A DNA stretch of 57,865 nucleotides from assembly GCA_017962545.1 (NCBI GenBank), contig JAGCVD010000018.1, positions 1-57,865 of the forward strand, given 5' to 3'. The translations under genes and the position numbers were made by a program. Of the stretch, positions 22,297 through 51,984 are shown piece by piece. The stretch comes from Bacteroidales bacterium (GTDB lineage: Bacteria; Bacteroidota; Bacteroidia; Bacteroidales; P3). Position 1 is the first letter of the stretch, and every line of letters begins with the position of its first letter. The notes beneath the pieces are model-generated. The model ran no database searches, was not told the DNA's origin, and saw only the letters and a list, made by a program, of their open reading frames with translations.

Positions 22297-22357
22297 ATGA
22301 AAAGCTTACTTAAATTATTGGTGTGCGCAAGCCTTGTTTTCAATTTTCAATTTTCAA
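22297..22357 (+). other. Detached signal-peptide start of the LolA-like gene (heptamer frameshift)
   Basis: An ATG at 22297 opens MKSLLKLLVCASLVFNFQ, a good signal peptide. It is in a different frame from the LolA-like domain that follows. The two meet in three TTTTCAA heptamers (22337-22357). One extra unit would join the frames to give a continuous precursor ending LVFNFQFSIFNSASAQ, with an A-x-A-type cleavage site, 223 residues in total. Confidence 0.75.
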
Positions 22358-22961
22358 TTCGGCATCGGCGCAGATTACTCATTCGAATCAAGGGCAGATA
22401 GACAAGACTGCCGACGCCTTGTTGAAGAAGGCCGCCGGCAAGTTTGGCAATGTGAGTTTCACGGTGACGGCCTCGGTACTCGACAGCCAAAAGAAGGAAA
22501 CCCTCCGCCAGTCGGCACAGGTGTTCTACTGCAAGGGGCACTACCGTGTGACGGTGGCCGACCAGGAGATTATCTGTGACGGCACCACGGTGTGGCAATG
22601 GAACAAGACGGCCAAGGAGGTGGCAGTCAATCATATGCCTGCCGCTGACGATATCAACCTGTTCAATCCCGCCCGTCTGTTGGCCGACTACGACAAGAAT
22701 TTCCGAGCCAAGTACATCCGTACCGACGACGACGGCACGGCGGTGGTGGACCTGCAGCCGCGTTCGGCTCGCAGTTTCCACAAAATACGTCTCTTCATCG
22801 TCGAGAAGAGCGGCCTCTTGCGCCGTATGGAGGTTCATAAGTATGACTCGGGTCGCGAGGTTTATGATATCACAGCCTTCAAGAACGCCGGCACGCCGGC
22901 CTCACAGTTCACCTTCGACGCAGCCAAACATCCGGGGGTGGAAATAATCGACATGCGATGA
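22323..22961 (+). CDS. LolA-like outer-membrane lipoprotein carrier protein
   Basis: This is a periplasmic beta-barrel-like carrier of the LolA/LolB fold. The domain starts at about THSNQGQIDKTADALLKKAAGK and contains VSFTVTASVLDSQKKE, YRVTVADQEIICDGTTVWQWNK and the C-terminal TFDAAKHPGVEIIDMR. As it stands the frame opens at a GTG (22323), and its first residues are read from the heptamer array in a frame that lacks the charged signal-peptide start. The true start is probably the ATG at 22297, cut off by a one-heptamer frameshift. It overlaps tsaB by ATGA. Confidence 0.82.
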   Translation: MRKPCFQFSIFNSASAQITHSNQGQIDKTADALLKKAAGKFGNVSFTVTASVLDSQKKETLRQSAQVFYCKGHYRVTVADQEIICDGTTVWQWNKTAKEVAVNHMPAADDINLFNPARLLADYDKNFRAKYIRTDDDGTAVVDLQPRSARSFHKIRLFIVEKSGLLRRMEVHKYDSGREVYDITAFKNAGTPASQFTFDAAKHPGVEIIDMR

Positions 22962-23644
22962 ATATCCTGCTGATAGAGACTGCCACGAGCATTTGCTCAG
23001 TGGCGCTGGCCCAAGAGGGCAGGGTGGTGGCACACCGTGAGAGCGACGCCCCCAACGCCCACTCTACGCAGTTGCCGCTGTTCATCAAAGAACTGATTGA
23101 CGGTGTCACGCTGGATGCCGTCTGTGTCAGCGCCGGCCCGGGAAGCTACACGGGTCTCCGCATCGGCGTGAGTAGTGCCAAAGGGCTCTGTTACGGACTG
23201 GATATCCCGCTGCTGTCGGTGCCCACGTTGCTCGGCATGGCCAGCCTCTATTATCTGCAGCACCCCGACTACCAAGGGCTTGTATGTCCCATGATCGACG
23301 CCCGCCGAATGGAGTGCTACACCATGGTAGTTCGGAGTTCAGAGTTCGGAGTTCGGAGTTTGCGCGACACCCATGCAGATGTCATCACAGAGCATATCTA
23401 CGACGTGTGGCTCGATGCTGAGCCGGTGACATTCATCGGCGACGGCGCCGAGAAGACGCGCGACCTCCTGAGTGTGCACCCCAATGCACGTTACGACAGC
23501 GCTTTCCGCATCAGCGCCGAGGGTATGCTGCCGCTGGCGGCGGAAAAACTCCGCAAGGGTGAAGTGGAGGATGTAGCCTATTTCGAGCCCTTCTACCTTA
23601 AAGACTTTGTAGCCAAAAAGAGCGTTGTCCACGGACTGAGATAG
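22958..23644 (+). CDS. tsaB: tRNA threonylcarbamoyladenosine biosynthesis protein TsaB
   Basis: TsaB is the non-catalytic partner of TsaD in making t6A37 in ANN-decoding tRNAs. The 228-residue ASKHA-fold protein has the IETATSICSVAL phosphate-1-like loop, VCVSAGPGSYTGLRIG and CPMIDARRMECYT. A heptamer array at 23329-23363 (AGTTCGG type) inserts VRSSEFGVRSLRD just after this last motif. The gene overlaps the LolA-like gene upstream, and the ABC permease starts 1 base after its stop. Confidence 0.93.
   Translation: MNILLIETATSICSVALAQEGRVVAHRESDAPNAHSTQLPLFIKELIDGVTLDAVCVSAGPGSYTGLRIGVSSAKGLCYGLDIPLLSVPTLLGMASLYYLQHPDYQGLVCPMIDARRMECYTMVVRSSEFGVRSLRDTHADVITEHIYDVWLDAEPVTFIGDGAEKTRDLLSVHPNARYDSAFRISAEGMLPLAAEKLRKGEVEDVAYFEPFYLKDFVAKKSVVHGLR
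23329..23363 (+). repeat. Heptamer array AGTTCGG x5 inside tsaB
   Basis: The units are AGTTCGG, AGTTCAG, AGTTCGG, AGTTCGG and AGTTTGC. The family is shared with the deiminase, moxR and tRNA-leader arrays. Confidence 0.88.
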
Positions 23645-23645
23645 T

Positions 23646-50120: not shown

Positions 50121-50136
50121 CTCATAACTCCGCACC

Positions 50137-50715
50137 ATGTTAATCCTTGGCATCGACCCCGGCACCCGTATCCTCGGCTACAGCCTCCTCAACACAGACG
50201 ACGGCAAATTGGAGGTCCTCGCCATGGATGTGCTCTACCTCAAGAATATGCCCGACTTCAATCGGCGCATACATTGTATCTTCAACTCCACGCTACGCAT
50301 TATAGACTCCTTCCATCCCGACCACTTGGCCATCGAGGCGCCTTTCTTCGGCAAGAACGTGCAGTCCATGCTCAAACTGGGACGCGCGCAAGGGGTCGCC
50401 ATCGCCGCCGCCATGAGCCGCGACCTCAGTTATACCGAGTACGAGCCTTCTGTCATCAAGCAGATAGTCACCGGCAACGGTATCGCCTCCAAAGAGCAGG
50501 TGGCCGCCATGCTGCGTTCCATCATCCAGTTTGATGACAATCCCCGCTACCTTGATGCCACCGACGCACTGGCTGTGGCCTACACCTGTCACATGCAGCT
50601 TTCCAATCCCCTTGCTGACCTGAGGAAAGAGCTCGTCCCTAAGACCAAACGCCACAAGTCGGCCAAGAAGCAGTGGTCAGAATTCGTTAACGACAATCCA
50701 GAGAGAGTAATATGA
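50137..50715 (+). CDS. ruvC: Holliday junction resolvase RuvC
   Basis: This dimeric endonuclease cuts Holliday junctions with RuvAB. The 192-residue protein has the catalytic acids D7 in LGIDPGTR, E67 in LAIEAPFFGKN, and the aspartates in YLDATDALAVAY. The C-terminal tail (KTKRHKSAKKQWSEFV) is basic. A heptamer-like ACTCATAACTCCG string precedes it. Confidence 0.95.
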   Translation: MLILGIDPGTRILGYSLLNTDDGKLEVLAMDVLYLKNMPDFNRRIHCIFNSTLRIIDSFHPDHLAIEAPFFGKNVQSMLKLGRAQGVAIAAAMSRDLSYTEYEPSVIKQIVTGNGIASKEQVAAMLRSIIQFDDNPRYLDATDALAVAYTCHMQLSNPLADLRKELVPKTKRHKSAKKQWSEFVNDNPERVI

Positions 50716-50721
50716 GATAAA

Positions 50722-51984
50722 ATGAAAAATAAAATGAAAAATATGCTTGCACAGATACGCCGTGTCGGTCCTCTTTTTACTTTTTGCCTTTTACTTTTTC
50801 CTTTACTTACAGGCTGTCTGCATCATGGCACCAAAATCTTTGATCCCCGTCAGGTGGCTTTTCAGGCAGAGTACAACCCTCTTTTCGACGGTCAGCTCTA
50901 TCCGTCGCTCATCTTGGGTACCAACAACAACACCTTCAACTTCCAACTGCCATCTTTCAACATCGAGCTCACCTCGCCGGCCGACAATGCCGTCCTGCGA
51001 GTAGTCATCGACTCCTCGGCGCTCAACTACGTCACCATCATCCAAGAGATACTACCCCGTCGTGGCGAGGTCTACCGCTTCCAGCCCTCCGTTAAGTGGA
51101 AATACGACGTGCTCCGCGCCCTGCGGCAGCCGGGAAACGTCGATTTTACCTTTACCTGCTACATCAACGACGAAGAGGTCGACATCAAGAACCTACATCT
51201 CTCCTACCGAACCGTCAACGAATGTCCCCTCTCGCTCGTCTACAACGGGCAGACCAGCGACTTCCGCTGGCTCTTCGCAGCCTATGTCAACGAAGACCAT
51301 CCCCAGATAGAGCAGATACTCACCGACATCGTCGAGCAGGGCACCGTCCGCCGGCTCACCGGCTACCAGAGCGGCGGCACGCAAGCTGTCCGCGACCAGG
51401 TCTTCGCCGTATGGTACTACGCCCTCGACCGCGGCATCACCTACAGCTCCATCACATGCACCTCCAATCCCTCGCCCCGCGCCAACGTCCAGCACATACG
51501 TTTCTTCGACGAAGTCCTCGCCACGCGGCAGGCAAACTGTGTAGACGCCTGTGTCTTCTTCGCCTCCATACTCCGCAAGATAGGCCTCAAGCCCGTCATC
51601 TTCGTCGAGCCCTGCCACGCCTACTTGGGCTACTACACCGACCGCAACCGCAAGCAGATTGCACTCCTCGAGACCACCATCACCTCGTGGGTCAACTTCC
51701 CCGACCTCGAGCGCTCGCTCGACCAGGATGGACGTCTGCCCGACGCCCAGTGGCAGAAAGTCAAGAAATACCTCAGCGACAAAGAGGTGGAAGAGTACGA
51801 GGGAGGCCGCATGACCTTCCCACAGCTCAAGCTTGCCGTCGCACGCAGCCTCTTCGACAAAGCGGCAGAATACGACCGCGACACCTACACCGCCAATCGC
51901 GAGCACTTCGCTGACACCGCCAGCATCACCTACCAGCAGCTCGACATCGAACTCCTCCGCAAACAGGTGCAGCCAATCAACTAA
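50722..51984 (+). CDS. Transglutaminase-like lipoprotein
   Basis: This 420-residue predicted lipoprotein starts MKNKMKNMLAQ and has a hydrophobic core encoded by CTTTTTA heptamers (50773-50807) before the lipobox LLTGC (about residue 32). The middle is beta-rich. The C-terminal half contains a papain/transglutaminase-like core, with a cysteine in RQANCVDACVFFASILRKIG and a histidine in VEPCHAYLGYYTD. An acidic third residue is not certain. No named family recognised; peptidase, transglutaminase-like amidase or non-catalytic roles are possible. It starts 6 bases after ruvC. Confidence 0.75.
   Translation: MKNKMKNMLAQIRRVGPLFTFCLLLFPLLTGCLHHGTKIFDPRQVAFQAEYNPLFDGQLYPSLILGTNNNTFNFQLPSFNIELTSPADNAVLRVVIDSSALNYVTIIQEILPRRGEVYRFQPSVKWKYDVLRALRQPGNVDFTFTCYINDEEVDIKNLHLSYRTVNECPLSLVYNGQTSDFRWLFAAYVNEDHPQIEQILTDIVEQGTVRRLTGYQSGGTQAVRDQVFAVWYYALDRGITYSSITCTSNPSPRANVQHIRFFDEVLATRQANCVDACVFFASILRKIGLKPVIFVEPCHAYLGYYTDRNRKQIALLETTITSWVNFPDLERSLDQDGRLPDAQWQKVKKYLSDKEVEEYEGGRMTFPQLKLAVARSLFDKAAEYDRDTYTANREHFADTASITYQQLDIELLRKQVQPIN
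50773..50807 (+). repeat. Heptamer array CTTTTTA coding a lipoprotein signal core
   Basis: Units CTTTTTA, CTTTTTG, CCTTTTA, CTTTTTC and CTTTACT encode LFTFCLLLFPLL before the lipobox. Confidence 0.8.

Follow-up and report, generated by a model that had tools for sequence, protein, structure and literature searches.

Short tandem repeats occupy the signal peptides (SPs) of six exported proteins encoded in one 57,865-nucleotide contig of a Bacteroidales bacterium (JAGCVD010000018.1; hereafter the window), which raises the question of why such arrays lie there and whether their copy number could control secretion, as a preliminary description of this DNA had proposed. The window is contig C41 of genome G000 (1.95 Mb, 42 contigs, 81% complete). 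Its named relatives, matched through BatD, are assemblies of uncultured Bacteroidales or Bacteroidetes, and rumen or reticulum stands in some of their titles. We found that arrays form SP cores more often than codon shuffling predicts and that array-bearing DNA is spread over the sampled genome, SPs being one site among several. The explanation that we prefer, with a probability of about 0.64, is that the genus carries a genome-wide load of short tandem arrays, mainly of 7 bp, which persist where they are tolerated, notably in SP cores.

Tandem arrays in signal peptides and elsewhere

Four of the array-bearing genes belong to a Bat operon with the order MoxR, DUF58, small pre-BatA protein, BatA, BatB, TPR protein (BatC), BatD, and TPR/SH3 protein (BatE), in which the names BatC and BatE are based on gene order and TPR domains. 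The other two encode LolA and a lipoprotein that has no Pfam match at E 0.01. All six arrays of the preliminary description are present in the sequence, in SPs that were assigned by hydropathy, cleavage motif, and reading:

22337-22359, forward strand: LolA array, TTTTCAA, 3.3 copies, SP core
42090..42165, forward strand: pre-BatA SP with a 9-bp ATAGTAACT-type array, in frame
42117-42147, forward strand: 9-mer array of pre-BatA, 3.4 copies, 86% matches
45035..45110, forward strand: BatC SP with a 9-bp AACTATAGG-type array, in frame
45067-45094, forward strand: BatC array, AACTATAGG, 3.1 copies, weak, with just 73% matches
45854-45888, forward strand: BatD array in the SP region, TTTCAGT (TTTTCAG/TTTCAGT), 4.9 copies, 92%
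47684..47764, forward strand: BatE SP, ATG in frame
47723-47753, forward strand: BatE array, TTTTCAG, 4.4 copies, 87%, SP core
50773-50804, forward strand: lipoprotein array, CTTTTTA, 4.6 copies, 80%, SP core, in frame, with a lipobox-like LTGC after it

When the SP window around each of the six arrays was codon-shuffled 5000 times, every array exceeded the shuffles, with p values between 0.0002 (the floor) and 0.0042 for the period of the array itself and between 0.0002 and 0.018 over periods 5 to 11, for windows that were picked post hoc. The independent test was made on 20 stretches of G000 alone, without the window and without nine related loci that were obtained via BatD and whose four period-7 matches, all in Bat genes, are thus not independent. 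Together with the window, these stretches form a 409-kb sample, about one-fifth of the genome, in which genes were called with our own crude codon-usage finder. Of the 171 N-terminal hydrophobic segments in the 20 stretches, five had a period-7 array, where codon shuffling, which preserves T-rich codons, gave 0.64 (Poisson p 0.0005); of 581 internal hydrophobic segments, two had one, where shuffling gave 1.04. The two kinds of segment differed with a Fisher p of 0.008, or 0.026 without one leader-array match (L034, gene 10788-13112), which by reading is not a core. Period 9 was mildly raised in the N-terminal segments (7/171 versus 2.35). Period-7 arrays are present beyond SPs too, as other coding windows were above the shuffle (13/2006 versus 3.73). 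When the 409 kb and the nine related loci were pooled, the corresponding period-7 counts were 10/309 (about 1.05 shuffled) for N-terminal segments, 5/926 (1.5) for internal hydrophobic segments, and 23/3215 (6.55) for other coding windows, and periods 5, 6, 8, 10, and 11 were close to expectation in the N-terminal segments of this pooled set. LolA and BatD were missed by the test because their starts are out of frame or stopped. The enrichment that the preliminary description had named as a check on its proposal was therefore borne out outside the window, SP-core arrays exceeding the expectation from codon composition.

Because 7 is prime to 3, a heptamer array encodes one cyclic heptapeptide in all frames. 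TTTTCAA reads FQFSIFN, TTTTCAG reads FSVFSFQ, and CTTTTTA reads LFTFYFL, each stop-free and identical in every frame. The earlier statement that the units give suitable peptides in every frame thus holds for the heptamers and fails for AACTATAGG, whose frames differ (NYR, TIG, and L-stop-E). AATTGAA, the opposite strand of TTTTCAA, has one stop per three copies in each frame; long runs of it therefore cannot be coding. Short AATTGAA runs were found within genes (L218).

In the 409-kb sample, we counted 28 strict period-7 arrays, of which 15 lie within called coding DNA and 13 elsewhere; a second-order Markov control had none. Their units are diverse and include TTTTCAA, GGAGTTC, AAGTTGA, ATGAGTT, and AAAATGA. 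The window also contains the following repeats:

7988..8022, forward strand: AATTGAA array of the same unit family, mostly intergenic, running from the end of one gene into the leader of the gene that follows
40817..40848, forward strand: GGAGTTC heptamer array in the MoxR linker, outside any SP
50717..50743, forward strand: 12-bp ATAAAATGAAAA repeat, by which the start codon of the lipoprotein is duplicated

MoxR is 86 to 91% identical to eight relatives, and the array fills a linker that varies in length and sequence. In the relatives, this linker carries different short sequences, one of which is likewise repeat-like (ESGKWKAESGK). The lipoprotein (50722-51984 of the window) gave a partial NCBIfam match to the anti-phage protein ProA at 79 bits, far under the cut-off of 1500.

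Of 59 genomes in the genus, 35 have TTTTCAR arrays, and a reversed control pattern gave five matches in total; in a sample of 148 genomes from the order, such arrays were present in 11, G000 among them. We examined 115 distinct arrays, nine from G000 and the others from 100 regions taken among the matches listed, some listed arrays being left out. By script, and on the T-rich strand, 48 of them were N-terminal, 12 were internal to coding sequence, and 55 had no coding sequence downstream. An SP motif was called in 34 of the 48, from which L053 and L168 were dropped on reading, leaving 32 SP cores among the 115 arrays (6/9 in G000 and 26/106 in relatives); further N-terminal arrays look internal by eye (L129, L169, and L200). 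Copy numbers in the N-terminal class range from 2.9 to 4.7 with a median of 3.9, and the other classes have medians of 3.7 and 4.1. Certain relatives also have SP cores built of 9-mers (GLIGLIGLIG).

Copy number and reading frame

In the heptamer arrays of LolA, BatD, BatE, and the lipoprotein, gain or loss of one copy shifts the frame of the mature protein because 7 is not a multiple of 3; the 9-bp units of pre-BatA and BatC are multiples of three. The one difference in copy number that we saw is at LolA (22297..22961, forward strand; PF03548, E 3e-9). Its ATG at 22297 is a good SP start in the wrong frame for the mature protein, and the only in-frame start is a GTG at 22323. In seven orthologs chosen for similarity, which have the same SP by alignment, the distance from the ATG to a reference point in the mature protein is exactly 132 nt; in the window it is 125 nt, that is, one heptamer fewer. 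The seven relatives carry TTTTCAA, TTCTCAA, CACTTTT, and CTTTCCA units, with none remaining in L236, and the remaining orthologs differ in SP and length. An in-frame ATG was found in all 29 other LolA orthologs retrieved (55 genomes had a match). With the window counted, eight of 30 LolA SPs were flagged as having a period-7 array. This comparison, with one genome per species, indicates that the LolA copy number changed between species and that the predicted effect is a frameshift. It is possible that the off state is an assembly error or a minority allele. In addition, GTG starts look real at PorQ (L055) and at a similar gene of a different genome (L144), so LolA expression is perhaps reduced and not off.

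These results do not support the proposal that copy number tunes export while the mature domain is left untouched, since a heptamer change shifts the frame, as 125 versus 132 nt at LolA illustrates. Pre-BatA and BatC, with their 9-bp units, are the only cases in which the core could change length in frame and to which the proposal might apply.

Among the 32 SP arrays, 23 have an in-frame ATG, seven have only GTG or TTG, and two have no start, where one-third in frame would be expected by chance. The 26 arrays of relatives account for 21 with an in-frame ATG, five with GTG or TTG only, and none without a start. The two arrays without a start are those of a TolC-like gene, at C12:174056 of G000, and the window BatD. 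A run of seven T adjoins the array of the TolC-like gene, and all four orthologs retrieved from the genus have an in-frame ATG. BatD is arranged as follows:

45814..45858, forward strand: upstream ATG to an in-frame TAA (45856-45858) at the array start
45898..47655, forward strand: BatD mature open reading frame (PF13584, E 2e-37)

The first usable ATG of BatD is the one at 45898, downstream of the SP. Array genes that could be given a family are LolA, BatD, the TPR proteins (BatC and BatE), OEP/TolC-like, PorQ, and GH3; none among these few is adhesin-like, and two are outer-membrane proteins.

Shared cassettes and turnover

One SP cassette is common to three genes. Within G000, DNA copies of the BatE leader and SP are present in BatD (87%) and in a GH3 gene of contig C5 (82%). 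A separate SP sequence is common to pre-BatA and BatC (79% DNA identity). The BatD leader contains an A-rich heptamer array:

45776..45815, forward strand: AGAATTA array, reaching the upstream ATG

When aligned positions were counted, the base before TTTTCA was G in 4/4 units of BatD, G in 3/4 of BatE (in which one unit reads TTTGCA), and T in 4/4 of the GH3 gene. This pattern points to homogenization within the arrays, as judged from the aligned copies. We also considered the BatE cassette as a genus-wide element, which was rejected: its three full matches lie solely in G000, and up to 15 scored candidates per genome in the other 58 genomes gave no full match at E ≤1e-6. In G001 and G004, just the array end was matched.

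The units vary from one species to another, as does one copy number. In L021, the nearest named relative found, whose DNA is 84.5% identical over the BatB-containing segment, the SPs of BatC, BatD, and BatE differ from those of the window. Its BatD SP has a TTTTCAA array and its BatE SP a CTTTCAA array, both with n-regions unlike those of the window; in BatC, the 9-bp array has given way to just a degenerate heptamer run. A long GTTTACR array stands at the place of the AATTAAG-type BatD leader of the window.

A further reading, tentative and with odds clearly below even, is that in this genus heptamers are a supply of new SPs, A-rich arrays giving leaders and lysine-rich n-regions, T-rich arrays giving cores, and leader-plus-SP cassettes being copied between unrelated genes. 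If this is true, the export tags of conserved proteins would be rebuilt between related species while the mature domains stay unchanged. More generally, the data suggest a route for the birth and turnover of SPs, since SPs of unrelated export genes throughout the genus are made of tandem repeats and have apparently been rebuilt from them.

Competing explanations, known systems, and sequences beside arrays

In the explanation that we prefer, arrays would arise, become homogenized, and be replaced, probably through replication slippage or gene conversion. They would persist at permissive sites, which appear to be leaders, intergenic DNA, the variable MoxR linker, and, within coding DNA, above all SP cores. 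T-rich heptamers would fit a hydrophobic core because every frame gives the same stop-free heptapeptide, and this would be why array-built SPs recur in unrelated exported proteins with species-specific units. A change of one copy would hardly alter the composition of the core and would shift the mature frame; selection should therefore keep frame and length. Where a unit is lost, as in the window LolA, the gene would be turned off or left with a weaker start. Frame switching at three to five copies would then be an occasional by-product and not a tuned control of secretion. Several observations weigh against this account. The six TTTTCAR SP arrays of G000 comprise two with an in-frame ATG, two with GTG only, and two with no start, and these apparent off states would exceed what purifying selection predicts unless they reflect the assembly consensus or real switching. 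The independent SP sample is small (five matches, one doubtful). The constant LolA SP length is limited to the group with one common SP; for the 29 other orthologs taken together, the most distant ATG listed is 36 to 51 codons upstream, and in L238, where an array stands in a different SP, the distance is 120 nt. Translation at some arrays may begin at GTG or TTG, which makes the "off" state of LolA uncertain. Finally, a motif, GCGTCAGCC, adjoins arrays unusually often, for which slippage alone gives no account.

The same off states bear on two other explanations. They could be assembly or consensus errors at LolA, the TolC-like gene, and the BatD stop, a doubtful reading that is compatible with any of the others: G000 is 81% complete in 42 contigs, the 29 other LolA and four TolC-like orthologs all have an in-frame ATG, and seven T stand beside the TolC-like array. 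It would leave the arrays themselves unaffected, however, and the LolA difference is exactly one unit in a 23-bp array, which is shorter than a sequencing read. Alternatively, the arrays may have been selected because slippage of a non-triplet unit would turn the translation of exported proteins on and off, as at the opa contingency loci. The unit length of 7, the four of six TTTTCAR SP arrays of G000 without an in-frame ATG, the out-of-frame LolA one unit below its seven relatives, and the opa and oipA precedents, as far as the excerpts of those papers go, are consistent with selected switching. We nevertheless regard it as unlikely, since the few genes with a family serve general export functions and include no adhesin-like antigen, the arrays are short with copy numbers no higher than elsewhere, many arrays lie outside SPs, and none of the relatives' SP arrays lacks a start. 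That copy number tunes the hydrophobic core and thereby export is very improbable. It is feasible at pre-BatA and BatC, where the unit has 9 bp, and at the 9-mer cores of some relatives, in line with the mild excess at period 9, but heptamers make up four of the six arrays in the window, and in these only a three-copy change keeps the frame, and the sole length difference seen, that at LolA, is a frameshift. We give hardly any credence to an action at the RNA level, in which A-rich leader heptamers would pair with T-rich SP heptamers and gate translation. The A-rich array does come first in 12 of 12 mixed neighboring pairs of relatives, but the folds of the six window leaders gave no consistent structure (z of +1.7 for BatD, +1.6 for BatE, −0.8 for LolA, −2.3 for pre-BatA, −1.4 for BatC, and +0.3 for the lipoprotein), and gating by RNA structure was rejected on this ground.

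The idea of a new way for repeats to vary secretion was overstated, because opa and oipA already switch by frameshift; arrays in the SP cores of unrelated genes are the part that is new. We compared the arrays with published systems, described here from excerpts of the papers. In Neisseria opa, CTCTT repeats in the leader-peptide region switch Opa via frameshift (PMC3960869, PMC4534519). Both cases have a tandem repeat of a non-triplet unit in the region coding for the leader peptide, where a copy change shifts the mature frame; in opa, a single unit switches fast in a single family of surface proteins, whereas here unrelated export genes carry many units at three to five copies and switching is putative. 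Helicobacter oipA has CT repeats in its 5′ region and frameshift phase variation (PMC10564699). It is similar in its 5′ coding repeat and differs in having a dinucleotide unit in a single outer-membrane protein gene. TAACTGA heptamer direct repeats are intergenic in Beggiatoaceae, Cyanobacteria, and some Bacteroidetes (PMC4679880); they resemble our arrays as genome-wide heptamer arrays and lie mostly just upstream of start codons (PMC4679880). Unlike our arrays, they have one fixed unit, and the term "signal peptide" is absent from the main text of that paper (PMC4679880). No TAACTGA pair was found in the window with one mismatch allowed or in 272 loci by exact match; the sampled one-fifth of the genome has a generic excess at period 7 and not the single conserved unit TAACTGA. 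In Borg elements, recent and independently arising tandem repeats make new protein segments (PMC9879509), in disordered regions of an archaeal extrachromosomal element in contrast to the bacterial SPs described here. Among the matches listed in the open-licence literature, there was no account of heptamer-built SPs in Bacteroidales. What is new here is the occurrence in many unrelated export genes, the species-varying units, and the SP cassette in three genes. The array loci are candidate sites at which sequencing reads could reveal frame switching in general export genes.

The motif GCGTCAGCC adjoins arrays of several units in several species at 16 of its 34 occurrences in the sequence examined. 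The loci are as follows:

L143:1272
L218:1228
L040:1179, reverse strand
L124, L208, L240, L109, and L009

Its first eight bases, GCGTCAGC, lie near arrays in 23 of 128 cases (18%), and 51 permuted 8-mers do so at a mean of 7.8% and at most 35%; in these counts, much of the sequence was chosen for its arrays and orthologs are not independent. The motif was not among the top words in an 8-mer screen of array flanks. It may mark an element or a favored array-forming site. A fixed mobile core was rejected, as the 14-mer TGCGTCAGCCGGAA from L143, with a near match in L218, had no match in 41 genomes, a weak test in that these exclude G055, the genome of L143 itself.

In the pairs, among the scanned loci, in which an A-rich array precedes a T-rich array of the TTTTCAA family within 220 bp (12/12), the geometry is that of an inverted repeat with a variable spacer (L123, L124, L135, L150, L152, L159, L160, L162, L163, L164, L176, and L215). 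Repeats of an 11-bp unit, GGTATTTCTTT, recur in intergenic DNA and at times face inverted copies:

58-83 and 39987-40037 of the window
L035:9645
L048:19894-19948

The window also encodes, at 26584-34977 on the reverse strand, a 2797-aa protein whose N-terminal part holds a C10 peptidase and Spi-type inhibitor domain and which has, besides fn3 domains, a sorting tail for type IX secretion.

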